This document shows, piece after piece, positions 1-13,227 of a stretch of DNA of 13,227 bases (position 1 is the stretch's first letter; every line of letters starts with the position of its first letter). The position numbers and the translations under genes are program-made. The DNA lies in the NCBI GenBank assembly GCA_030614485.1, contig JAUWTY010000012.1, positions 1 to 13,227 on the forward strand. The letters run 5' to 3'. The stretch comes from Methanosarcinales archaeon (GTDB taxonomy: Archaea; Halobacteriota; Methanosarcinia; Methanosarcinales; Methanocomedenaceae). Below the pieces are notes generated by a model. The model saw nothing but the letters and a program-made list of their open reading frames with translations, ran no database searches and had not been told where the DNA came from.

Positions 1-210
1 TGTTGTTGAAGATAGTGTATTGGTAATATTGATTTGACCAGTGCCGTTTATTCCTGCACTGATTAAAGCGGTCCCATTGAATGTATCTAATCTACTTGCA
101 TATTCTGTCACTGATATATCCAGAACATTACTTGCAGATGCCGGTAAAATTAAGATAAATAATATTACCAACACTCCGGTAATATTTTGTTTCAAATTAT
201 TGTTTTTCAT
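1..210 (-). CDS. Secreted protein, 5' part only (runs off the left edge)
   Basis: The frame opens with ATG at 210-208 and stays open for 70 codons to the window edge. The protein starts MKNNNLKQN, then has a hydrophobic stretch at about residues 10-23 ending in LPASAS, which is a typical Sec signal peptide with cleavage after the ASA at about residues 24-26. The mature part begins SNVLDISVTEYASRL and contains N-G-T and N-I-T sequons, like the exported proteins on the other side of the intergenic region. A G-rich ribosome-binding stretch (AAGGGG, 218-223) sits about 7 bases before the ATG and supports this start. The gene is divergent from the surface-protein operon. Too little is present to name a family. 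It is probably another archaeal surface or secreted protein, but that is inference from the signal peptide and its neighbours. Confidence 0.75.
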   Translation of the reverse strand, partial: MKNNNLKQNITGVLVILFILILPASASNVLDISVTEYASRLDTFNGTALISAGINGTGQINITNTLSSTT

Positions 211-281
211 ATAATCGCCCCTTTTAGTTATACTCATCTTGTTTGATGAATTTCCTCATTATGATTAGCATAATATTAAGA

Positions 282-300
282 TTTATTTATATATATAATT
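282..300 (-). promoter_or_regulatory. Probable TATA box of the left-edge secreted gene
   Basis: The run TTTATTTATATATATAATT reads on the minus strand as a TATA element centred about 80 bases before the ATG at 210. Archaeal transcription normally starts about 25 bases after the TATA box, which would leave a leader of roughly 55 bases that includes the G-rich ribosome-binding stretch. No start site is directly visible, so this is inference from composition and position. Confidence 0.4.
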
Positions 301-363
301 TATGTTAAAAATAGCTAACAGGATTCAAAACATTGGAAATCAATCATACATGTGGTGGAATCA

Positions 364-379
364 TGTACAACTTTGTACA
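364..379. repeat. Dyad TGTACAA-CT-TTGTACA, possible operator
   Basis: Two perfectly complementary 7-base half-sites are separated by CT. Outside them, ATCA (360-363) and TGAT (381-384) continue the symmetry with one unpaired base at 380. The site lies in the divergent control region, between the two TATA-like elements. This symmetry fits a dimeric regulator binding site, but no regulator gene is in the window and the hairpin could be incidental in AT-rich DNA. Confidence 0.4.
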
Positions 380-413
380 ATGATGCAAAACCCAATCATG
401 AGACTGCCCATTT

Positions 414-494
414 AATGTATGATAACAATAATTATTAGTAGATTAAGTACTATTATATTATACAAAAAATATAGAAAATGTATGACAATAATTA
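414..494 (+). repeat. Imperfect direct repeat upstream of the surface operon
   Basis: AATGTATGA followed by CAATAATTA occurs at 414-434, where the halves are separated by TAA, and again at 477-494, where they are joined directly. All 18 bases are shared, and the copies are about 63 bases apart. The second copy ends about 17 bases before the TATA-like element of the plus-strand operon, where an activator or repressor could bind. Its function is unproven. Confidence 0.4.
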
Positions 495-510
495 CCTTTT
501 AACATTTCAA

Positions 511-537
511 TAAAATATATATATACATATTTATAAG
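511..537 (+). promoter_or_regulatory. Probable promoter (TATA element) of the surface-protein operon
   Basis: TAAAATATATATATACATAT at 511-530, followed by TTTATAAG at 530-537, is the only strong TATA-like run close to the ATG at 554. With the usual archaeal spacing of about 25 bases, transcription would start near 545-550, giving a very short or leaderless message. This fits the absence of a good ribosome-binding site before 554. The exact element cannot be fixed in such AT-rich DNA. Confidence 0.45.
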
Positions 538-553
538 ATTAAATGGGAATAAA

Positions 554-1294
554 ATGAGTCACAAAACAAAAAGTCTTTGGATTCTCCTATGCCTGTTGCT
601 CCTTATCGGGAGTTGCTCAGGGGAAACTATCGTAGAAGTATTTGATGAATATCAAGTGAACATAACCGTGGGCAGTGACAGTGTCCATGTCGAAGAGTCT
701 ATATCCATCAAGAATGTTATAGATAAACCCATTGTTCCTGGTTACGCCTACACGACCTTGAAACATTCATCACAAAATGAGATACTTGGCTTACCTCTTC
801 CTGGAAAACAGACAGACCCCCTTGATATTACGAATGTGGTGGTCACGTTTCAGGGTAACCGGTTGAATGATGTGCTTGTGACAGAGGGGGATGAAAGTAC
901 CACAATTCGTTATGGTCTGTGGTTCCCAATCTCTCCGGGTGAAAGTATGACAGTAAATCTGGAATACGATTCCTCAGATTTTATTGACAAGGGAATTCTT
1001 TTCACCCAAGGGTATTACCCAATTGCTGCTAACATCCCGATCAATAATGCTGTGATTAATCTTGAATTGCAAGACGGGAGCCACGTTACATATTCAAATA
1101 GCAAACCTGATAAATCAAATAAGTTGGCTACATGGACTATGGAGTCCTTGGGTACGGATGAGTGGCTTTTAAAATATGAGTACAGCAAACTCCCACTCCC
1201 CACATCACCTGTAAGGTGGTCACTGATGTTTTGGCTGTTCATGCTGGCCATAGTGAGTATTTGGTCTTATCGCAACTGGAAACCCAGGAGATGA
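554..1294 (+). CDS. Exported, C-terminally membrane-anchored protein of unknown function
   Basis: The protein has 246 residues. Its N-terminus (MSHKTK, then a hydrophobic run at 8-19) is a signal peptide. The sequence LIGSC at 17-21 resembles a lipobox with Cys21 as the lipid site, but a standard Sec cleavage is equally possible. Residues about 25-215 are rich in alternating beta-strand patterns and look like one or two beta-sandwich domains with few sequons. A single helix at about 221-239 (WSLMFWLFMLAIVSIWSY) followed by RNWKPRR is a classic stop-transfer anchor, so the bulk faces outward. It is the first gene of the surface operon, and the next gene starts 9 bases after its stop. I do not recognise a family. 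By context it may anchor or help assemble the giant exported protein encoded downstream. Confidence 0.75.
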   Translation: MSHKTKSLWILLCLLLLIGSCSGETIVEVFDEYQVNITVGSDSVHVEESISIKNVIDKPIVPGYAYTTLKHSSQNEILGLPLPGKQTDPLDITNVVVTFQGNRLNDVLVTEGDESTTIRYGLWFPISPGESMTVNLEYDSSDFIDKGILFTQGYYPIAANIPINNAVINLELQDGSHVTYSNSKPDKSNKLATWTMESLGTDEWLLKYEYSKLPLPTSPVRWSLMFWLFMLAIVSIWSYRNWKPRR

Positions 1295-1303
1295 AAACCC
1301 TGG

Positions 1304-2371
1304 ATGGATATTCGAATGGGACAGGAAATAAAACGGTTACTGGAAACAGTAACAATAATACTATTAGTTCTTCTGATCTTTATCTGGGGCGCTTCTGCGC
1401 TAGTGAACCAGACAACAGTGGTAGCTACTGACAGGCCATATTATAACCCATGGGATACGGTCAGCATCATTATTAGTGATACTTCTGAATTAACTGCATG
1501 GATTGTGGACCCTGAAAAGGGTGAGATACCATTAGTACTTGTTCCATCAGATTCGGGATACACGGCAGAATATTCCCCGCAACAGGGCATAATCCTTGGA
1601 ACTTATACCGTGGTTGTTAGCGGTCCGCAGGTTAATGATACAACTCAATTTGAAATAATTGTAACAACTATTGGCAACCTGACCATCAACACCTCCCAGG
1701 AAGTGTACGAGGCAGGGCAGAAAGTGGAACTCAGTATAATTTCACCACAGGGCATACCTGTTGTGTGGGTTACCGACCCAATGGGAAATTCTGCGGCTGT
1801 AAAAGTTACTCAAAAGAATGGCGTTTATACTGGAACATTCCGTCCTGATAGACAGATAATTTTAGGTGAATACCAGGCTGAAGCCGAAAGTTATGCCAAT
1901 GGTTCAAAGGAACATGCAAAGGTTGGATTTACAATATCTGCCCCCACAAAGCCCCCCGTTGTATCGCTTTCATCGGGTGTAGAGTTCTTAAGAATACTGT
2001 CCGGCCCCAGGACAGGGCAGCATAAGGTGCCGCCTGAAACCAACATAAATGTAACAATTACAGTGAATCTGGAAGACTCCTTATACAGTACTAATCTGGT
2101 TGACTACTTCCCGAAAGACTGGATTATAACTAATCCCAACAGCGGCATTGTATCCACATACGATGCACAATATAATATGATATCCTGGCCCGTCTCTGTA
2201 AATACGTCGGTCACAAAATGGTATATTATCGAAAGCCCACAGAGGACGACTCCGCCAACGATATACAATTTCTTTACCGGACTGGGCGGCGATACCTCAG
2301 GGCTATGGAAGGTCACGGTTGCAGACCCTACCAATACCTATTATTTTCATCCCGAAACTGTGAATGTGTGA
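1304..2371 (+). CDS. N-terminal part of a giant exported Ig-like protein, cut by an in-frame TGA
   Basis: This frame encodes 355 residues. The N-terminus has a hydrophobic helix at about 15-33 ending in GASA, which is a signal peptide or signal anchor. Two tandem repeats follow, about 37-120 and 125-211. Each has the pattern Y..(N/A)...V.(L)SI....(L)..W(I/V).DP, a G(Y/V)YT-type strand and an (I)ILG(T/E)Y strand. They look like macroglobulin MG2/Ig-like domains. Residues about 225-340 begin a further domain with a DUF11-like strand (VDYFPKDWIITNP). AGGAG at 1286-1290, within the end of the previous gene, is a plausible ribosome-binding site 13 bases from ATG 1304; ATG 1316 is an alternative. 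The frame ends at TGA 2369-2371 in mid-domain, and the same frame continues downstream as coding sequence. It is probably one gene with the 2029-aa frame that follows. If made alone, it would be a small exported protein with a truncated last domain. Confidence 0.8.
   Translation: MDIRMGQEIKRLLETVTIILLVLLIFIWGASALVNQTTVVATDRPYYNPWDTVSIIISDTSELTAWIVDPEKGEIPLVLVPSDSGYTAEYSPQQGIILGTYTVVVSGPQVNDTTQFEIIVTTIGNLTINTSQEVYEAGQKVELSIISPQGIPVVWVTDPMGNSAAVKVTQKNGVYTGTFRPDRQIILGEYQAEAESYANGSKEHAKVGFTISAPTKPPVVSLSSGVEFLRILSGPRTGQHKVPPETNINVTITVNLEDSLYSTNLVDYFPKDWIITNPNSGIVSTYDAQYNMISWPVSVNTSVTKWYIIESPQRTTPPTIYNFFTGLGGDTSGLWKVTVADPTNTYYFHPETVNV
2369..2371 (+). other. In-frame TGA interrupting one long gene
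   Basis: The codons read GTG AAT GTG TGA GTC GAA GGC. The frame is identical before and after the stop, and the 62 codons between it and the first ATG at 2558 encode protein of the same style, for example FTEPPAFRFYTDPAF and FTSNITFTSDTTIT. Between the stop and 2558 there is no ATG, GTG or TTG in this frame. One change from TGG (Trp), CGA (Arg) or GGA (Gly) would create the stop. Removing it gives an uninterrupted frame of 2447 residues from 1304 to 8647. TGA is the normal terminator of the first gene and of this gene, so general reassignment of TGA is not indicated. Confidence 0.85.
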
Positions 2372-2557
2372 GTCGAAGGCATCCAGAAGGTCGCCAATTC
2401 CACAGACAATACCGGCGATACCACAGACGATGAGACCGCAGGACCGTTATACAGTTCAGGTAATCCAAATACATTCACAGAACCACCTGCTTTCAGGTTC
2501 TATACAGATCCGGCTTTTACGTCAAACATCACTTTCACATCCGATACGACCATCACA

Positions 2558-5500
2558 ATGTGGTTTGACAATAACTACAACGATTCCAGCAATGGACCTA
2601 TCCATTACAAGGCCATAATTTATGACTACGACCCAGCCACAGGCAGCAACATTTCCCTGGGGAGTGATGAAAAGGATTTTATTCAGGGGCATACCCAACT
2701 GGCATTTACCATCCCCACCAATAATAAGTCGGTCGTTGGTGGTCACAGGTTAACAGTGGTATTCCAGGTAAATGGTACAGACAGGACCGATGACTACCGG
2801 CCCGCTATTGTCTATGACAGTACTACAAATAACTCGCGTATGACTTTTTCGTATTTTGTAGATACACTACCCCCCCAGATAACAAATATTTCAGCAAGTA
2901 TAGACCCACAGGTCATTAATAATTCATTGAATATTTCAGCCAATGTAACCGATAACGTGATTGTCAGCACTGTCTATATTAACATCACTTTACCCAATGG
3001 TACTTCCACAGGCAATCTTTCAATGATAAAGAATGGAGGCGACATCTGGGATTACAACTACACGCCGCCCATTGAAGGGCAATATAATTTTACCATTTAT
3101 TCCAATGACACATCAGATAACTGGAACTCTGCCGCCGCCAATTTCACAGCACAGACACCCCCTAACCTGACCTTTGCTCTTACACCCGAATATATAAGCA
3201 GCAACATCCTGACCAAATTAACCCTGGAAGTATCCAATACAGGCCAGGCGCAGGCAGATTCTGTTACTGTAGACTGTAATGTCCCGGCAGGTTTTGACAG
3301 TCCTTCAACGATATCCGATGGCGGAAGTTTTGATGAAGGTACACGTAACATTACCTGGGATTTGTCCACGCTGCCAGGCAGTGCAAATACGAGTTTAACA
3401 TTCTGGTCAAAGTGCAGCCTTTCAGGACAGTTCAACTTCTCTGCCAGTGCAGATTTCCAGGATGTGACCAATAATCCCTACAGTTCAACTGCTGACCTAT
3501 CTGTAAATATTACAGCACAGATTGCTGTTTATAATGGTACTGGGGCCGATCCGACAAGTTTCAACAACATTATTACTAGACTGGAAATTTCAGGTTATTC
3601 CTATACGGCAGTTGATGAAACCGATATCATAAACAACAACATCACAAGTTACGACCTGGTAATCATAGGAAGTGGTGATGAAGCGGCCATGACCTCATCA
3701 TTGGGCGCCACAGGTCTTACGAACATCCAGACATTTGTGGAAAACGGCGGCGGATATATCGGTTTTGGCTCCCAGGGAGGAGGAGGTGGATTCCTGGCCG
3801 GGAATGAACCAGGCTGGGATGACCTTATATTGACAGACGCAAGGCCGGTCAAAGATGATGGGCCCGGGCAATGTGTTGTACAGGTAATGGATACAACTCA
3901 TCCAGTGAACAATGGATATAGTGGAGATATAACCATCTTATTCGAAGGGAGCACATATTTCACAAACATGCCAGCTGCCACGGTCGAACTATCTTTATAT
4001 GACCGTAACATTGACATAAAACCTGCAGAATGGAACAGCATTAATGGCAAAACCGCCAGTCTTGCTGACCAAAGGGGACTGGGGCTGGTTGCCCTTTTTG
4101 GCTGGGACTTGCTGGCTAACAATAATCCCAAAACTGAAACTATGTTTGAGAATGCCATAAACTGGGCAATTCGCAAGGCTTTGAGGGTAGATGTCAATCC
4201 GTTAACTTTCCAGACACACCGTAACGAGACAAAGCAGATCAATGTAACTCTTTATAACAATCACACTTACGATGTCACAGGTACGTTAATGGTTGCAGTG
4301 CCCGCAGAGTGGATTGCGGAAAATAGTAGTTTAAATCCTATCACATTCAATCTCAATGCAAGTGGTGTCCGGAATTATATATTTAATGTAACAGCATACC
4401 AGGGCGCTTTCCATGCTAATTATACAATATGGGCTTATGCAACATATGAAGGAAAAGTGAGTCAGGACAAGGTAGTTGCGCAAATCATAGGACCCAGTGT
4501 AATCATAACTCGTAGCAATCCACCCCCGTTCATTGAACCATTGACTAACACCACAGTGACCCTGACCATCAACAACTCTGCATTGGCTGAAGAGACGGCC
4601 CGGAATCTTATATTTACTGAGATGGTTCCATCCACCTGGCAGGTAAATACAGGCAGCATCACTCCCGGAGCCAGCACATGGGAGAGCGGGGGTATTTATT
4701 ATATCCAGTGGGAACTGCCAGACCTTAATGTGGGTACCCAGACCAGTGTGAGTTATGAAGTAATGTCTCCCGAAACACTGCTCCAGTATGCTTTTGATTC
4801 CAGTGCCACCTATCTTGATGACTATAATACCACCCTTGAATCACTGGAATTCCACCAGGCAACTGTGGTAGCTGCACTGAACTTCAGCAGCAACACCCTC
4901 ATCGTGCCTATGGATGATAAACAAAGCGGCAACAGCACCAGGAACGGATATCCCAGACAACTTGTAGCCTATGGATTTTTGTATAATATCACAAGCATCA
5001 TACCGACCATATGGACCATCCAGGATGTGGGAGAGTCTTTTACCGCCAACACCACCGATGTTTGGAGCGGTACCCCATATACCAATGAGAATTATAGTGG
5101 GGGTCCTTTTGTACTTTCAAACTTAACCAGTGCACAGCAGGACCTGGTCATCCAGACTGCAATTTATTACAACATTTCACTGCACAACAGCACAGACACA
5201 TTTACAGTCCAGAGAGCTATCACCACGAGTCTTCCCAGTATAGCCTATTATTTGCCCACAGGCGACCCTGACCAGTATAACCGGGGCAGGGAGGACCTGA
5301 TATTGCAAAATTCACTTATAGAATTCACTTATGTAGATAAAAATGACGTGCTGGCTGGCAATCTTGAAAATTACAATACCTTAATTGTCCCCAGCAAGTC
5401 TCTTAGCGGTACCGGTCCCCTTGAAAGTGATGTAATAGACCAGATGTATAACTGGCTGGTGGCCGGGGGCAACCTGTGGTTGTCAAATGAAGCAGCATAT

Positions 5501-8500
5501 GAAATGGTAAAATACAAAGGCATACTCGACCTGACGACAGAAAATTTCCAGCGGGGAGGTTATGGTGACCTGTTAGCAGGCAACAATCTGACCATTACCC
5601 AGACGCATCTTGTGACACAGACCTATGGGCAGGTGCAGGGATATCCGGGATGGTATGACATGATCTTTAAAAGTGAATATTCAAGGAGTACGTTGGCAGT
5701 ACTTGAGCAAGGACCAATTGTATTGATTACCGGCAAGGAAGGGAGCGGGGATGTCTACGTAACATCACTTGAATTATTCTATGACCAGATAGATACGGCT
5801 TCAAACACGCAGGGAAGGCGTCTGATTAATAATTTCGTGTTTGTGGCATCCTACCGTTCTGCCGCCCAACTGGAAATACAAAATGCTCCACCGGGTGTGG
5901 CAGTGTACCCTGGCAGCAGTAACCTGTTCAATATATCTGTAGTCAACACAGGCAACATTGTATTGAACGATGTGATACTAAACCTGACCACTTCACTGCC
6001 CTCCTCCTGGATAGAAATCACTCCAATCAATTATTCGACTTTGGGTGTCAACTACATTTCTGAATTCACAGTAAATATCACTCCACCGTCCAACGCCACC
6101 ATTGGGCAGGTATTGAGTTCTCTTGTGGCAGACAGTCGCGAAGGTGCAACTGACAGCAGTCCACTGTCCATCTATATCTCTGACCTCATTGTTGAAACTG
6201 ATATGAACTATGACGTCAACGTAAACCAGCCAGTGAACATTACTGTAGATGTTACAGATTTGAGTTTAGTGCCCACATCCGGTGCTTCAGTTGACCTGAC
6301 AGTAACTGCGCCTGATAGTACTACATATAATCTGACAGCATCCGAAACGGTTGCAGGAACCTATGAGGCGCAATTCAATGAGACCGGGCAAAATGGTATC
6401 TATACTGTGGAGACCTTAGCAACTAAAGGCTCAAACCTGGGCTATAATTGCACATACTTTGCCGTAGATTTCCTGCAGGTCGATTTTTCGTTATACAATG
6501 ATAGCGGATACACGTTCCAGTCCAGGGATTTTGATATCAACGAGGTCATTTACCTCCAGGTCAACGTCACCCATACAAACGGCAGCAATGTCATTGGAGC
6601 ATTGAGCAGTTTCAATATCACTACTCCCAATGGTACGGTTTTTACTATCCCTGTAGTTGAGACCGACCCTGGCATATATAGGAGCAATTTCAGCAGTACA
6701 CAGATAGGTGGGGATTACTTATTCTATGCCCTGGCCAATGACAGCCGCGGTATCACCGGTATTGGTACTGATACACTGAGGTTGCCCCGGTATAGTGGAT
6801 TCCCGGCCAGCACACTGGTAATACCGATGGGACCAATGCAAAATACAAATGCAGTCGGGGCTAATTATCCATCACAGGTATCAGCATACGGCCTGGTACA
6901 CTGGCTGCTTATTAATAATATTACAGTAGACTGGGTGATTACAAGTGGCAAAAACTATAGTGACTTTGATTTCAATGCCACTACAGATGATGATGCATCC
7001 AATACCACTGGCACTATCCTTGACAGGAACTACTTTTCCGGCCCATTCCTCATCAGGGACCCTGATTCCAACACTTCCTGGAATGAAGCCTGGAACACCA
7101 TCCAGCAGATACGTACAGATACCGGCCTGTATGGCGATGTGGTAATTCATGAACTCAACCAGGCACTCATGGTTGAGAGCATGAATGACTATGTGATGGA
7201 CCGCCCAGTACGAGTTGCGATTCAGGATACTGCTGCCCAAGATATAGGTTATCTGTGGGATGGCGCCCTGTATCCTTCAGCAGGCATAAACCCAACGCTT
7301 CTTACTGCTGGACAGATAAGGACCGGTGACCTGCTTACCAATACAAGTATTAACTGCACCAAAAGAAAGGTCTATGACTGGGTATTTTTTGGTGATAGCG
7401 ATTTCTCGCAAACCGCTACATTCCCGGCAGGAGACGACCTCTTCACTCAGCTGAACATGTTCGTTAACAAGACCGGACATGTACACCTTCAAGGCTTAGG
7501 TTTAACCATGAACACCAGGACATCCTGGCTTACCACTACCACTGCCACCTACGATGAGGATGACTATGCCAACAATCAGCCGTATTCTGTATTTAACCAG
7601 GTTGCAGATCACCCTCTGGACCAAACTTATGGTACAGGTACACTTACTTTAAGTGTGACCAAGGCCAAAACCTTTGACGCATTCGAACATGATAACAACT
7701 GGCGTTCAAACACCTTGATGCTTGCTGGTTTTTCTGAATCTGTTGCAGACAACGGTGATGGAGGGAATATGTGGGATGTGGACCTGAAAAGTACATATAC
7801 CGATACAATTTCTGGTGCCTCAGAAGACAACTATGCTTTTGTGTCATCCAATACTTACGGAGGTGTTACTTCTTCTCTTGTAAACATCCTGCAAAGCACC
7901 ACTCCAGAGATGAGGCTGGCACTAAATACTGTAATGTTCAGCGTAATCACTCCCCAGTTTGACCACCAGCCAGAAAGTCAGGCAATACGAAAGGATGGAG
8001 CTACCAACTTAACTGTCAACGGCACGATAGATTCAGGCATGCTGGTATATAACCTGAAGATACATGATGAACTGCCATCCTATGCGATTATAAACACTTC
8101 ATCCATACAACTGTTTGTTGAAGGCAGTTATACCTATCAGGCATCAAACAACACAATCATATTTGATTTGGGCAATCCAGGCCAGGACAGCATCCTGAAC
8201 AGTACCCTGTTCTCATATAGTATCAACATTACACCACCGTTGGACCCGCCAAAAGATTTGGTGGTCTTAAACTCAACAGTAATTTATGATGACAACTGGA
8301 ATACAGGAATCACTTCATTCCACTGCATGAGTGTGCTGACCATCGACTACCTGGGTTTTACTGTCAATAAGACCATTGCACCAGGACCCGGCTTTGATAA
8401 TTATACGGTTACACTTAACCTGACAAACCCGGCTAATTTAAGCCAGACCAACCTCAGTGTCTATGATCTGGTCCCTGCCAATTTTAATATCACAAATCCA

Positions 8501-8647
8501 GTGCCAAATTATAATGGGTCCAATGCAAATAGATACTACTGGACCATGAATCTCTCTGCAGGAGAAAGTAAGATTGTGACCTACAGCATGGTGGGCACCG
8601 GGCGGTATAACATAAGCGATGCTTTTACAGTAGGGATGTTCTCATGA
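2558..8647 (+). CDS. Giant multi-domain surface protein, main part (2029 aa from the first ATG after the TGA)
   Basis: Coding sequence in this frame really begins right after TGA 2369-2371. ATG 2558 is only the first available start: it has no ribosome-binding site and no signal peptide follows it. Domains, numbered from ATG 2558, are assigned by eye. Ig/FN3-like, about 102-198. DUF11-like, about 200-320. Class I glutamine-amidotransferase-like (BPL_N/ThuA type), about 322-541, with GGYIGFGSQGG in place of the nucleophile loop, so probably not catalytic. NEW3-like, about 543-643. DUF11-like, about 645-770. Module A, about 780-1100, starting TLIVPMD. NEW3-like, about 1102-1208. Two macroglobulin/Ig-like domains, about 1209-1306 and 1307-1405. 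Module B, about 1418-1797, starting TLVIPMG and related to module A. Two DUF11-like repeats, about 1798-2029. N-X-S/T sequons occur throughout and cysteines are few, which fits a glycosylated exterior protein. No C-terminal anchor is present. It overlaps the next gene by ATGA. The likely role is a cell-surface or S-layer-associated scaffold, by inference. Confidence 0.8.
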   Translation: MWFDNNYNDSSNGPIHYKAIIYDYDPATGSNISLGSDEKDFIQGHTQLAFTIPTNNKSVVGGHRLTVVFQVNGTDRTDDYRPAIVYDSTTNNSRMTFSYFVDTLPPQITNISASIDPQVINNSLNISANVTDNVIVSTVYINITLPNGTSTGNLSMIKNGGDIWDYNYTPPIEGQYNFTIYSNDTSDNWNSAAANFTAQTPPNLTFALTPEYISSNILTKLTLEVSNTGQAQADSVTVDCNVPAGFDSPSTISDGGSFDEGTRNITWDLSTLPGSANTSLTFWSKCSLSGQFNFSASADFQDVTNNPYSSTADLSVNITAQIAVYNGTGADPTSFNNIITRLEISGYSYTAVDETDIINNNITSYDLVIIGSGDEAAMTSSLGATGLTNIQTFVENGGGYIGFGSQGGGGGFLAGNEPGWDDLILTDARPVKDDGPGQCVVQVMDTTHPVNNGYSGDITILFEGSTYFTNMPAATVELSLYDRNIDIKPAEWNSINGKTASLADQRGLGLVALFGWDLLANNNPKTETMFENAINWAIRKALRVDVNPLTFQTHRNETKQINVTLYNNHTYDVTGTLMVAVPAEWIAENSSLNPITFNLNASGVRNYIFNVTAYQGAFHANYTIWAYATYEGKVSQDKVVAQIIGPSVIITRSNPPPFIEPLTNTTVTLTINNSALAEETARNLIFTEMVPSTWQVNTGSITPGASTWESGGIYYIQWELPDLNVGTQTSVSYEVMSPETLLQYAFDSSATYLDDYNTTLESLEFHQATVVAALNFSSNTLIVPMDDKQSGNSTRNGYPRQLVAYGFLYNITSIIPTIWTIQDVGESFTANTTDVWSGTPYTNENYSGGPFVLSNLTSAQQDLVIQTAIYYNISLHNSTDTFTVQRAITTSLPSIAYYLPTGDPDQYNRGREDLILQNSLIEFTYVDKNDVLAGNLENYNTLIVPSKSLSGTGPLESDVIDQMYNWLVAGGNLWLSNEAAYEMVKYKGILDLTTENFQRGGYGDLLAGNNLTITQTHLVTQTYGQVQGYPGWYDMIFKSEYSRSTLAVLEQGPIVLITGKEGSGDVYVTSLELFYDQIDTASNTQGRRLINNFVFVASYRSAAQLEIQNAPPGVAVYPGSSNLFNISVVNTGNIVLNDVILNLTTSLPSSWIEITPINYSTLGVNYISEFTVNITPPSNATIGQVLSSLVADSREGATDSSPLSIYISDLIVETDMNYDVNVNQPVNITVDVTDLSLVPTSGASVDLTVTAPDSTTYNLTASETVAGTYEAQFNETGQNGIYTVETLATKGSNLGYNCTYFAVDFLQVDFSLYNDSGYTFQSRDFDINEVIYLQVNVTHTNGSNVIGALSSFNITTPNGTVFTIPVVETDPGIYRSNFSSTQIGGDYLFYALANDSRGITGIGTDTLRLPRYSGFPASTLVIPMGPMQNTNAVGANYPSQVSAYGLVHWLLINNITVDWVITSGKNYSDFDFNATTDDDASNTTGTILDRNYFSGPFLIRDPDSNTSWNEAWNTIQQIRTDTGLYGDVVIHELNQALMVESMNDYVMDRPVRVAIQDTAAQDIGYLWDGALYPSAGINPTLLTAGQIRTGDLLTNTSINCTKRKVYDWVFFGDSDFSQTATFPAGDDLFTQLNMFVNKTGHVHLQGLGLTMNTRTSWLTTTTATYDEDDYANNQPYSVFNQVADHPLDQTYGTGTLTLSVTKAKTFDAFEHDNNWRSNTLMLAGFSESVADNGDGGNMWDVDLKSTYTDTISGASEDNYAFVSSNTYGGVTSSLVNILQSTTPEMRLALNTVMFSVITPQFDHQPESQAIRKDGATNLTVNGTIDSGMLVYNLKIHDELPSYAIINTSSIQLFVEGSYTYQASNNTIIFDLGNPGQDSILNSTLFSYSINITPPLDPPKDLVVLNSTVIYDDNWNTGITSFHCMSVLTIDYLGFTVNKTIAPGPGFDNYTVTLNLTNPANLSQTNLSVYDLVPANFNITNPVPNYNGSNANRYYWTMNLSAGESKIVTYSMVGTGRYNISDAFTVGMFS

Positions 8648-10464
8648 GATATTGGAATAAGGGCATCTCAATTGTACTTTTAATGTCTTTGTACTTGCTG
8701 TTAATTTCGCAGGTATCCGCATTTCCACTGAATTTGCAGCTCGACACCACCGAATACATCAATGGGTTGGTTTTCTATTCAGACGGGACATACAGCCTTA
8801 GTGATGCTACGGGTTCACTCTACATAACGAATCCATCTATCAACAATACTATTGCAGATATCAACATTGATTTTAGCAGTGGCATTACACCCTCCACTAT
8901 CCATATCAACGAACTGAGTTGCAATAATACAACGGTTGTATCATACCAGATTGCCAGTTCTGTCATCAGTCTACCCATATCAGTCGTCGAAACCTTTACA
9001 CCTGCAACACTCGTACCAGGTGTTAACCAGACTGTAGTTTTCAATTTAACGATTAGCAATTCAGGCATTGAAAATATTAGTATTGTTCAGTTTGACAAGG
9101 TATTCCCATCTGAATTGACCTATCAAAGCATCACAGCCACAAATGGCAGCGTGAATTTTACAAACAATACCAATACTATTGTCTGGACAAACCTTTTAAT
9201 CCATCCTGCATCCACCGAGAGCATGCAGATAATGTTCAGTACCACACCCACAGCCAGCATAACAGTGCCAAATTCCAACCTTTCATTTACTCTTCCTACA
9301 TATTCAGCATCCACATCCCTTTCATTGTCGGCTGTCACCATCACCACCAACTTCACTCTTGAAAAAGAGAAAATTTCCAAAGACAGGTGGAGGGTAGGTT
9401 TCAGGGTGTGGGATGAAAGCGAATTCAATTATTCACTTTATCGGTCTGATATATATCTCTCAGACACAATGCTGAACAGTACAGTTCTCATCAAGACATT
9501 CTACCCGAATATTATACTCCAGCCCGGACAATCATGGTACGATGAATTGTTCTATGATTACTCAGGCGTACCTGTTTTCTTTGGACAGATATACTACACA
9601 TTATTGTTTAACCTCTCAGGCAGTTCAATGCCTGTGACGCCTGTAAAAAGTGGAGGTTACATCATCAATTCCGTTGTTTCCCCAGACAAAGGACCGGGCG
9701 GAGGTGGAGGCGGCGGAGGAGGTGGCGGTGGAGGAGGGGGTGGCTCCTCAGGAGAAGACTTCTACAATATTGTATGTACAGAAACTGACCGGAAAAATAC
9801 AGTTAAAAACTCATCAGTTAGCTATAACTTTGATCTTGATTGCAATATCGTGAAATATATCAATTTCACATCTCTGGTTAGTGCAGGAACGATTGCCGCA
9901 AAAGTGGAAGTACTAAACAGCACTTCATCTCTTGTGAATGTATCGCCACCTGGGACAGTATTTAAAAATGTTAATATCTGGGTTGGGAACTATGGATGGG
10001 CAACACAGAAGAATATTGATGATGTGAAAGTAGTCTTCATTGTTGAAAAATCATGGATTAATGAAAACTATATTGACATATCTACGATTGCTCTCTACAG
10101 GTATGATAACACCACCTGGTACAAACTCAATACAAAAAAGATCGCTGAGGATTCAATGTACCTGTACTTTGAAGCTAACACCCCGGGCTTTGGCCCCTTT
10201 TCCATATCAAGCATGAATGGAGGATTTGAGTTTATGTTTATGCCTTCATTTACACCTGCACCTACACCCAGACCTACTTTTATTCCATCCTCAACTTCGG
10301 ACGGATTAGGAGAGTTAAACATCACAAACCAAACAGCAGTACCTGAAAAAAAGAAAATGTCCTGGTGGTGGTGGCTGTTAATCCTGATAATCATTTGCCT
10401 GATTATATATTCATATTTAAGGAAAGCGTCATTAATGGATTGGATTGAAGAAAGAAGACAGTAA
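8644..10464 (+). CDS. Membrane-anchored surface protein with poly-Gly hinge and PGF-pre-PGF-like domain
   Basis: The protein has 606 residues. It starts inside the ATGA overlap with the giant gene, so the two are probably translationally coupled. A signal peptide covers about 1-26, ending QVSA. A beta-rich region with a DUF11-like domain (about 116-200) follows. Residues 352-367 are 16 consecutive glycines. Residues about 372-524 match the PGF-pre-PGF type of domain, with the strand order VFIVEKSWI, then IALYRYDNTTWYKL, then a closing TPGFGPFSISS. Known members usually stand just before a PGF-CTERM archaeosortase signal. Here the C-terminus is instead a Pro/Thr-rich linker (about 533-554), a Trp-rich helix SWWWWLLILIIICLIIYSYL (about 573-592) and a 14-residue tail ending DWIEERRQ, with no PGF motif. 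It is therefore an ordinary membrane-anchored protein facing outward. It may tether the giant protein, which has no anchor of its own. Confidence 0.8.
   Translation: MRYWNKGISIVLLMSLYLLLISQVSAFPLNLQLDTTEYINGLVFYSDGTYSLSDATGSLYITNPSINNTIADINIDFSSGITPSTIHINELSCNNTTVVSYQIASSVISLPISVVETFTPATLVPGVNQTVVFNLTISNSGIENISIVQFDKVFPSELTYQSITATNGSVNFTNNTNTIVWTNLLIHPASTESMQIMFSTTPTASITVPNSNLSFTLPTYSASTSLSLSAVTITTNFTLEKEKISKDRWRVGFRVWDESEFNYSLYRSDIYLSDTMLNSTVLIKTFYPNIILQPGQSWYDELFYDYSGVPVFFGQIYYTLLFNLSGSSMPVTPVKSGGYIINSVVSPDKGPGGGGGGGGGGGGGGGGSSGEDFYNIVCTETDRKNTVKNSSVSYNFDLDCNIVKYINFTSLVSAGTIAAKVEVLNSTSSLVNVSPPGTVFKNVNIWVGNYGWATQKNIDDVKVVFIVEKSWINENYIDISTIALYRYDNTTWYKLNTKKIAEDSMYLYFEANTPGFGPFSISSMNGGFEFMFMPSFTPAPTPRPTFIPSSTSDGLGELNITNQTAVPEKKKMSWWWWLLILIIICLIIYSYLRKASLMDWIEERRQ
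9697..9744 (+). repeat. Sixteen-codon poly-glycine tract
   Basis: The tract encodes residues 352-367 of the 606-aa protein. Codons are mixed GGC, GGA, GGT and GGG, so it is not a simple trinucleotide repeat. It separates the N-terminal beta-rich domains from the PGF-pre-PGF-like domain and is probably a flexible hinge. The purine-rich GG-dense DNA could slip during replication or sequencing. Confidence 0.85.
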
Positions 10465-10552
10465 TTTGTTCCAAAGTTAACATCTGGTAAAAATTTATAG
10501 TAATAATGTAATGTTGATGAGGGTATTGTTATTACATGTCAATTCTGGCTGT

Positions 10553-10587
10553 TATAGGTGCATTGAAAATTATTCAATGCATCTATA
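10553..10587. terminator. Strong hairpin between convergent operons, probable bidirectional terminator
   Basis: TATAGGTGCATTGAA (10553-10567) pairs with TTCAATGCATCTATA (10573-10587) around the 5-base loop AATTA. This gives 15 base pairs, with one G-U wobble in the plus-strand RNA. The pyrimidine-rich TCTTTGCCTCTTCC follows on the plus strand. It lies in the 170-base gap between the end of the surface operon (10464) and the end of the ACT gene (10635). Archaeal termination depends mainly on U-tracts, so the hairpin may instead protect 3' ends. Confidence 0.6.
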
Positions 10588-10634
10588 TCTTTGCCTCTTC
10601 CAGTACATAACTGGCACGAAATATCTGCACAACC

Positions 10635-11066
10635 TTATTTCACATCTTCAATTCCAATAAGCACCACACCGGTCCTGTTGAGCACTTTTATGGCGTTGCT
10701 GATATCATTCACCCTGATTATCAATAGTGCATTCTCGGTTGCAGTGGCAAAGGCATAAGCATAATCCACATTAATATTATTGGCACCAAGTACGGTTGCA
10801 ATATCATGCAGGCCGCCAGGGGAATCGCTCATCTCCACGCCAAGCACATCGGTCTCAGAAACCGTGAACCCGGCATCATGCAGCACACTGTGTGCCTTAT
10901 CCGGCTTGTCCACCACCATGCGCAGCACTCCGAAATCACCTGCTTCTGCAATGGTAAAGGCCCGGATATTGATGCCTGCGGATTTAAGCTGGCCAGTGAT
11001 CTCCTCCAGCCTGCCTGGTTTATTCTCTGCAAATATGGATATCTGTTTAATTAATTTATCTTCCAT
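10635..11066 (-). CDS. Tandem ACT-domain protein (amino-acid-binding regulator)
   Basis: The protein has 143 residues and consists of two ACT domains with little else. The first covers about 5-70, with the ligand-loop motif ENKPGRLEEI (14-23). The second covers about 73-140, with DSPGGLHDI (81-89). ACT domains bind small ligands, usually amino acids, at the dimer interface. The GGGGGTG stretch upstream of the ATG at 11066 is a good ribosome-binding site. The gene starts 15 bases after the stop of the phenylacetate-CoA-ligase-like gene and is surely co-transcribed with it. This pairing recurs in methanogens and other archaea, and suggests sensing of an amino acid, perhaps an aromatic or branched-chain one, linked to the ligase pathway. 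No DNA-binding or catalytic domain is present, so it acts through partner proteins or as a free sensor. The family call is firm; ligand and partner are unknown. Confidence 0.88.
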   Translation of the reverse strand: MEDKLIKQISIFAENKPGRLEEITGQLKSAGINIRAFTIAEAGDFGVLRMVVDKPDKAHSVLHDAGFTVSETDVLGVEMSDSPGGLHDIATVLGANNINVDYAYAFATATENALLIIRVNDISNAIKVLNRTGVVLIGIEDVK

Positions 11067-11081
11067 TTAATACACCCCCAA

Positions 11082-12386
11082 TTACATGTTCCTCTTGTCA
11101 ATAACTCTCTGTGCCTTACCCATGGACCGCGGGATGGTTCCCGGTTCCACAAGTTCAACTTTTCCTGTGATGTTCAGTACAGTGTGAAGTGCCTTACCGA
11201 CCTTTTTCTCAAGTTTCATCAGGTCAGATATCTTATCGCTGAACACATTCTCGGTCACTTCAACCTGGACCGTAAGCCTATCAAGTTCACCCTCACGCTC
11301 AACTATAAGCTGGTAGTGTTCAGCAACTTCTGGTATGCCCATCAGGACAGCTTCTACCTGTCCCGGGAACACATTGATACCTCTCACGATTATCATATCA
11401 TCAGTCCGGCCCAGGATACGCATGATGCGCGGATGTGTCCTGCCGCATTTACAGGGCTCACTTTTTATCACCGTCAAATCGCCAATACGGTATCGTATCA
11501 ACGGCAGTGCCTCCTTGACCAGCGTGGTCACGACCAACTCCCCTCTCTCACCGTCAGGTAACGGCTCACCGGTCATCGGGTCAATAACCTCTATCAGGAA
11601 CTGGTCTGCCCAGATATGTATACCGTCCTGGTACGTACATTCTGTGAACAGGGGACCGCTTATCTCAGAAGTCCCGAAAATATCGTACGCCTTGATGCCA
11701 GTCTGCTCTTCTATCCTTCGCCGCATCTCCTCAGACCAGGGTTCGGCACCGAAGATGCCGCATTTCAATTTTGTGTCATTTGCTATACTGATACCCATTT
11801 TCTTGGTGACCTCGTTGATGTGAAGGAAATATGACGGTGTGCAAGCGATAGCAGTGGAACCTAAATCCTGCATCAGTTCTATCTGCCGTTCAGTATTTCC
11901 GGAACTGGTAGGTATGGCACTTGCCCCTACCATTTCCGTACCATAATGCAATCCCAGCCCGCCCGTGAACAGGCCATACCCGTAACCTACCTGGATCACA
12001 TCCTCCCGGCCCACACCGATAGATGTCAGACCCCGGGCAAGGGAGGTACTCCATTCTTTCACATCATTTTCAGTATATCCCACAACCGTGGGTTTGCCAG
12101 TGGTGCCGCTGGATGCATGGTAGCGGACCACCTGTTTTTGGGGTACACAGAACATGCCAGTAGGATATGTGTCCCGCAGGTCCTGTTTTACAGTGAAAGG
12201 AAGTTTCTTGACATCCGCGAGTGACTGGATGTCATCAGGCGAAATCCCAGCTTCATCAAATTGTTTCCTGTAAAAAGGAGAATGGTCATACACATATCGG
12301 ACCAGTTGCTTCAGTTTATCTTCCTGGACTTTTTTCAGTTCTTCAACCGGCATTCTCTCAATAAGTGGGTCCCAATATTCAGGCAT
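11082..12386 (-). CDS. paaK: Phenylacetate-CoA ligase (PaaK-type adenylate-forming enzyme)
   Basis: The enzyme activates an aryl acid with ATP to an acyl-adenylate and transfers it to CoA. With the start at 12386 it has 434 residues, the usual length of the family. Visible motifs are SSGTTGKPT (92-100, ATP-binding loop), YDIFGTSE (234-241), RYRIGDLT (298-305), CKCGRTHPRI followed by GRTDDMIIVRG (312-336), and a C-terminal PRSMGK with the likely catalytic Lys424. The frame is open upstream to 12527, but those 47 residues overlap the neighbouring gene and do not resemble the family. MPEYWDPLIERMP is a typical PaaK beginning and has AGGGAT a few bases upstream, so 12386 is chosen. In methanogens these ligases often accompany indolepyruvate/arylpyruvate oxidoreductases, so arylacetates from aromatic amino-acid metabolism are likely substrates, by inference. 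It is followed 15 bases later by the ACT gene. Confidence 0.88.
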   Translation of the reverse strand: MPEYWDPLIERMPVEELKKVQEDKLKQLVRYVYDHSPFYRKQFDEAGISPDDIQSLADVKKLPFTVKQDLRDTYPTGMFCVPQKQVVRYHASSGTTGKPTVVGYTENDVKEWSTSLARGLTSIGVGREDVIQVGYGYGLFTGGLGLHYGTEMVGASAIPTSSGNTERQIELMQDLGSTAIACTPSYFLHINEVTKKMGISIANDTKLKCGIFGAEPWSEEMRRRIEEQTGIKAYDIFGTSEISGPLFTECTYQDGIHIWADQFLIEVIDPMTGEPLPDGERGELVVTTLVKEALPLIRYRIGDLTVIKSEPCKCGRTHPRIMRILGRTDDMIIVRGINVFPGQVEAVLMGIPEVAEHYQLIVEREGELDRLTVQVEVTENVFSDKISDLMKLEKKVGKALHTVLNITGKVELVEPGTIPRSMGKAQRVIDKRNM

Positions 12387-12415
12387 GGTAATCCCTGAAT
12401 ACTCTGTACTAAAAA

Positions 12416-12424
12416 GATATAAAA
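12416..12424 (-). promoter_or_regulatory. Probable TATA box of the paaK-ACT pair
   Basis: On the minus strand the bases read TTTTATATC, within an A/T run, about 30-38 bases before the ATG at 12386. That spacing suits an archaeal TATA box with a short leader containing the AGGGAT ribosome-binding site. It lies in the 46-base gap after the TIM-barrel gene, so paaK may have its own promoter besides read-through. Confidence 0.45.
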
Positions 12425-12432
12425 TGTTTGGT

Positions 12433-13218
12433 TTAAAGTGCCCGTAGATAATCAAGACTCTGCTGGCCGAACTCGAATGTGCGGGATTCCAGCACGTACC
12501 TGACATCAAGTTTTGCAAGTTTTCCAATTACAGTGGCCCAGTCAACGGAACCTTCACCCAAAGGCAGGTGTTCGTCCCTGCGTCCATTGTTATCATGAAG
12601 ATGCACGTGCACTATTTTTCCGGGACACTTTTCAAGGAATGAAGATACGGCTTTATTGGTGTTGGCATGCCCCACATCAAAGGTCATTCCAAGGTTATCC
12701 CGGTCAACCGATTCTATCATACCCAGCATTTCCTCGGCATGCTTGCCGAAGATGAATTCCATGTTGACCATATTCTCCACCCCGATGGTAATGTCAAACC
12801 GGGCCGCATAGTCGCACAATTGCTGAAGCCCCTGGATGTTACGCTGCCATGCAAGGTCAGGCAACTGCATACCCAGCGGGGAAAGATGGCCTGGATGTAC
12901 CACAGCCAACTTTGAGTAGGGTGACATAAGCTGTATCCATTGCGTCATCTGGTGAAGAGTCTCGTTCCAGATAGGTTCATTGAGACTGGCAAGGTTCAGG
13001 TCAGAGAAAGGGAGATGAACGGTAAGGTTCAGGTCAGTGGTCTCAAGGACCGATGCTATCTCTTTAATGTTCAATTCATCCGGTCCCTGGCGCCTGTCAC
13101 AAACCAACTCCCAGCCAGTAAATCCCATGTCAACTAGTGTATTAGCAAATTTAGACATGTTACTGGTCGGGGGCGGGTATGAAAAACTGATTTTGCTGGG
13201 GTCTAGTCCGGAACTCAT
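12433..13218 (-). CDS. Sugar phosphate isomerase/epimerase-like TIM-barrel protein
   Basis: The protein has 261 residues and belongs to the xylose-isomerase-like TIM-barrel (AP endonuclease 2 type) superfamily. Signature strands carry likely metal or substrate ligands: VHLPF (His68), VVHPGH (His108), GVENM (Glu148), MTFDVGH (Asp181, His184), HVHLHDN (His204, His206, His208, Asp209), DEHLPLGEGSVDW (His217, Glu222) and YVLESR (Glu244). All these positions look intact, so it is probably an active metal-dependent enzyme. The ATG at 13218 is the first usable start; an earlier ATG at 13223 meets a stop after one codon. The upstream region lies outside the window. Members act as sugar isomerases/epimerases, inosose dehydratases or endonuclease IV, so the substrate cannot be read from sequence. 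It precedes paaK by 46 bases on the same strand. Confidence 0.85.
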   Translation of the reverse strand: MSSGLDPSKISFSYPPPTSNMSKFANTLVDMGFTGWELVCDRRQGPDELNIKEIASVLETTDLNLTVHLPFSDLNLASLNEPIWNETLHQMTQWIQLMSPYSKLAVVHPGHLSPLGMQLPDLAWQRNIQGLQQLCDYAARFDITIGVENMVNMEFIFGKHAEEMLGMIESVDRDNLGMTFDVGHANTNKAVSSFLEKCPGKIVHVHLHDNNGRRDEHLPLGEGSVDWATVIGKLAKLDVRYVLESRTFEFGQQSLDYLRAL

Positions 13219-13227
13219 AACATCACA

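Follow-up and report, generated by a model that had tools for sequence, protein, structure and literature searches.

The 355-aa and 2029-aa open reading frames (ORFs) of the window (the whole 13,227-nucleotide stretch of DNA that was analysed) appear to be two parts of one giant gene, cut by a single premature TGA. We put the probability at roughly 80% that this stop is either a recent nonsense mutation, which is the likelier branch, or an error in the consensus of the MAG. The stop is of little importance in itself, being recent or an error, and its kind is ordinary. The less ordinary part is the gene that carries it, which is a heme-free form at a locus where relatives within the genus have a giant multiheme cytochrome. 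The source genome is an ANME-2 MAG from an uncultured archaeon of a methane-oxidising group; the window covers positions 1-13227 of its contig C106, and the MAG is 58% complete (1,180,703 bases in 182 contigs). The stop is known from this one contig, in one genome of its species. Coordinates are collected in Table 1; we take the three flank genes to be ACT-domain-like, AMP-ligase-like and isomerase-like.

Table 1. Features of the window, with positions counted from its first letter.
Feature	Position	Strand	Remarks
Divergent cassette gene, start only	1..237	-	truncated by window end; about 560-583 aa where intact in relatives
First cassette gene, 246 aa	554..1294	+	hydrophobic N-terminal stretch; seed for finding other cassettes
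Giant gene 5' part, 355 aa	1304..2371	+	hydrophobic N-terminal stretch; ends at in-frame TGA
In-frame TGA, codon 356	2369..2371	+	glycine codon in G003 and G004
Open linker, 62 codons	2372..2557	+	without start codon; low dN/dS against G003 and G004
Giant gene 3' part, 2029 aa	2558..8647	+	no ribosome-binding site seen, no hydrophobic N-terminus
Giant-gene region common to G003 and G004, about residues 1-524	1304..2874	+	spans the TGA
Heme-free interior	2875..8344	+	no blastn match in G003/G004 loci, where a multiheme cytochrome sits instead
Conserved C-terminal region, residues 2340-2446 by protein match	8345..8647	+	73% identity to G003
Last cassette gene, 606 aa	8644..10464	+	PGF-pre-PGF domain (TIGR04213), DUF11, C-terminal hydrophobic stretch
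Flank, three genes	about 10631-13227 (ORFs 10635..13218)	-	ORF list and DNA match to relatives

The two ORFs are in the same phase, as a first-pass annotation of the sequence had stated, and with the TGA read as X they form one frame of 2448 codons in which codon 356 and the terminal TGA are the only two stops. The linker, described in that annotation as open, protein-like and startless, proved to be so: an in-frame scan found no ATG, GTG, TTG, CTG or ATT from codon 357 up to the ATG at 2558 (codon 419), which is the earliest start codon 3' of the TGA, and dN/dS in the linker is about 0.15. The downstream frame also matched its description as lacking a ribosome-binding site and a signal peptide, as none of the former was seen by eye within 30 bases upstream of ATG 2558, and a simple hydropathy scan found no hydrophobic stretch or N-terminus in the 2029-aa product. 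The start at 1304 is preceded by AGGAGATG (by eye), and in the same type of scan residues 8-41 of the 5' part stand out as hydrophobic; this part also has a weak MG2-like match under the Pfam cut-off. The other ORFs in the window are uninterrupted.

Across the stop, the frame aligns over 524 residues with the two same-genus orthologues found, G003 (84% identity) and G004 (78%; contig JAMJFV010000043.1 of ANME-2 cluster archaeon isolate B4-08, with 51/51 compared bases in agreement). The frame is open at the stop position in both (2/2), which supports the single split gene of the first-pass reading and a recent origin of the stop. The orthologue alignment that the annotation had proposed as a check places glycine at this position in both relatives, rather than the tryptophan implied by its suggestion that TGG to TGA was the simplest change. 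Alignment across the stop is limited to G003 and G004; similarity to the proteins of G012 (another genus of the same family) and of Methanosarcinaceae is seen ahead of the stop and fades close to it. Two separate working proteins, with the 2029-aa frame translated alone from ATG 2558, are very improbable. An in-frame ATG is present and low dN/dS is kept from there to residue 524, but no ribosome-binding site or hydrophobic N-terminus was seen, and a start at 2558 lies within sequence that is unbroken in G003 and G004.

Matches to the 355-aa N-terminal part were found in 6/99 genomes and matches to the 2029-aa part in 20/99, the former count including the source genome and the latter being mostly short and weak; no relative of the 2029-aa protein was confirmed among 4 pattern matches. 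Reading of the giant gene covered 10 distinct loci (the window, G003, G004 on the L036 contig, G012, G042, G079 and L037, L038, L039 and L040), and the N-terminal region of the Methanosarcinaceae proteins is 25-36% identical to that of G004. The gene is intact at seven of the ten, in G004 up to the contig end only. Besides the window it is broken in G003, where the cytochrome gene changes frame near L031:6094-6179, and in the one-contig genome G042, where it is divided into two ORFs in different frames (L034:1897-5540); as two of the three interrupted loci are in MAGs, assembly errors could partly account for them. As evidence against a single gene, the annotation had named a consistent division of the orthologues into two genes, with a separate start and signal peptide for the second. 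This arrangement is absent from these loci, with G003 and G042 being broken elsewhere.

Relaxed selection after the stop was not seen. Against G003, dN/dS is 0.165 before the stop (352 codons), 0.152 in the linker (62 codons) and 0.129 from the stop to residue 524, and the corresponding values against G004 are 0.287, 0.161 and 0.127. Changes unique to the window in the linker comprise 7 synonymous and 3 non-synonymous ones; as there are about 3 non-synonymous sites per synonymous one, a neutral linker would give far more non-synonymous changes. Thus, the stop is either recent relative to the split from G003, or a consensus error. This estimate of age is a rough limit, as the linker is short and G003 distant. 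The N-terminal part is unmatched in G001, G002 and G005, whose flanks are the closest to those of the window (dS 0.2-0.3), and so the age of the stop depends on G003 and G004 (flank dS 0.59 and 0.565). An error of consensus or assembly, with an uninterrupted gene in living cells, is the less likely branch. It fits a difference of one codon flanked on either side by low dN/dS, in one contig of a MAG of this completeness whose remaining window ORFs are intact; damage to cassette genes elsewhere, in G003 and G042, fits real decay instead. On the preferred reading of a recent nonsense mutation, the stop would be present in living cells, and the most that the cell could make would be an N-terminal piece of 355 residues, which would be exported. 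The 2029-residue remainder would stay unexported because it has no signal peptide and no obvious start site.

True read-through of the TGA, or its decoding as an amino acid to give a regulated long form, was among the options in the first-pass annotation and is now hardly credible. The linker is conserved as protein, as read-through would require, but the stop is not conserved, since G003 and G004 both have an ordinary glycine codon there. TGA also closes the giant gene at its own 3' end, where similarity to G003 and G012 ends as well. In a sample of 98 ORFs, each 150 codons or longer, from 20 contigs of the MAG (134,959 bases), TGA is an ordinary stop (42 TAA, 35 TGA, 21 TAG), and genome-wide recoding is not supported. 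The median open run after the stop is 9.5 codons for TAA and 6 for both TGA and TAG, and runs reach 60 codons in 9/42 TAA, 2/33 TGA and 1/20 TAG measurable cases; thus TGA is not trailed by longer frames. The sample includes a long open run behind a TGA at L086, which by eye did not look like the continuation of a protein. SepSecS (TIGR03531) was above the cut-off in 0/30 genomes, with Methanocaldococcus jannaschii positive as a control; weak matches under the cut-off occur in 10/30, including the source MAG with its 58% completeness.

In a blastn comparison with the G003 locus, the window matches at 1-2874, 8345-10211 and 10631-13226, and its interior (2875-8344) has no match in the fetched loci of G003 or G004. 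Orthologous ends are confirmed for residues 1-524 (G003 and G004) and 2340-2446 (G003). G003 shares the flank of the window at this locus, and in G004 the flank and last gene are on a separate contig (L070). The interior is about 5.5 kb in the window versus about 3.7 kb in G003 (L031:5084-8805). CxxCH motifs number 2+11 across two ORFs in G003 and at least 11 in G004 (to the contig end), with Cytochrome_C7 above the Pfam cut-off in both and an MtrC/MtrF-like family above it in G004 only. The pieces of the window gene contain none, and neither do G012, G042, G079 and L037-L040. The window copy has the ends and locus of an ANME multiheme cytochrome without its heme motifs. Above the Pfam cut-off, its 2029-aa frame has NPCBM_assoc, DUF11, BPL_N and, near the C-terminus, Top6b_C; Filamin, ThuA, Adap_comp_sub and bMG10 fall below. 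A 398-aa module at 6776-7969 is common to the window and G012 (68% identity), and neither copy has a Pfam match. Structure prediction was of low confidence for this module (2 rows, mean pLDDT 27.1) and for the N-terminal region of G004 (9 rows, mean pLDDT 55.1, falling below 50 over residues 323-405, which cover the position of the window stop). Neither the N-terminal region of G004 nor the second G003 ORF matched a PDB sequence at E values up to 0.1.

An assembly chimera, in which the heme-free interior would be no real allele, is improbable. The relatives with the closest flanks have no such gene, and the interior is unmatched in the G003 and G004 loci, as a chimera would predict. However, two false joins would be required, because G003 matches both sides of the interior. 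Moreover, a single ORF of G012, an independent genome, combines related N- and C-terminal regions with a stretch homologous to window residues 1641-2445. With the heme-free interior taken as real, surface structure or binding, rather than electron transfer, is the probable role of the window copy.

Synonymous divergence is not uniform along the locus. In the flank, dS is 0.59 between the window and G003, 0.565 between the window and G004, and 0.465 between G003 and G004. The 5' part of the cassette (the 246-aa gene plus 524 residues) gives 0.58, 0.68 and 0.75 for the same pairs, and the last gene (277 shared codons) 1.16 (0.87-1.72), 1.29 (0.95-2.01) and 0.335 (0.24-0.45). The last cassette gene of the window (8644-10464) is thus separated from G003 and G004 by about twice the flank value. 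These differences suggest that the 3' side of the locus has a different history from the 5' side, although the argument is weakened by the 246-aa gene, whose values alone (0.655, 1.047 and 1.408) are near saturation and make dS uneven within the 5' side. An 8-row tree of the 246-aa protein joins the window and G003 with support of 89/94, below the starred level.

The conserved ends enclose either a multiheme cytochrome (G003 and G004) or a heme-free interior (the window and, in a shorter form, G012), and recombination may be the route by which the interiors came to differ. We give about even odds to the broader proposal that, at a single chromosomal site, an ANME-2 giant surface protein alternates by recombination between multiheme-cytochrome and heme-free interiors within conserved ends, such that the electron conduit of the surface would be a swappable module on a general surface-protein frame that is also present in methanogens of the same order. 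The outgroups give little guidance on which interior came first, as they have no CxxCH, yet are assembled from other modules.

The four-gene cassette is accessory, being absent or damaged in several lineages. Its last gene matches TIGR04213 (PGF-pre-PGF; 163.9 bits versus a cut-off of 28). The 246-aa protein is present in 4/17 genomes of the family, including the source, with several of the others being incomplete; a search with its alignment found 5 loci out of 86 pattern matches, and the order of the cassette recurs in Methanococcoides, Methanosarcina and two further loci (L037-L040). Flank DNA is 92-94% identical in G005, G002 and G001 and 85% identical in G007. No further match to the window was found beside it in the fetched stretches of G001, G002, G005 and G007, that of G005 extending only about 600 bases beyond the flank, and the contig of G006 stops within it. 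The ORFs adjacent to the flank in G001 and G002, the only two listed, are other genes. As for the neighbours of the giant gene, the last cassette gene of G003 has a frame break near its start (L031:9095-9420), and that of G042 is short and adjoins another ORF, presumably transposase-like. The divergent cassette gene at L039:8527-9498 is listed as 323 aa, compared with 562-583 aa at other loci, and may be interrupted. Damage across several lineages fits a dispensable cassette, though 2/3 of the interrupted giant genes are in MAGs.

At this locus, close relatives thus differ in whether a giant surface protein with conserved ends takes a heme-bearing or a heme-free form. The gain of large extracellular cytochromes by ANME becomes testable here, with the caution that homologous ends do not mean electron transfer. 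ANME-2 archaea reportedly have giant multiheme cytochromes with S-layer-type parts. The window gene resembles these in lineage and in encoding a giant exported protein, and its G003 and G004 orthologues have CxxCH motifs and cytochrome Pfam matches; the window copy differs in having no CxxCH, and no S-layer Pfam family is listed for the ORFs of the window, G003 or G004. The modular surface proteins of Methanosarcinaceae (L037-L040 and G079) are similar in the gene order around a relative of the 246-aa protein, in a related N-terminal region and in the absence of CxxCH, but their interior modules differ in length and sequence and their ORFs are uninterrupted. The G012 orthologue also has no CxxCH and is 60% identical over window residues 1641-2445; it is however a single ORF of 1563 aa, against a window frame that is about 880 residues longer.
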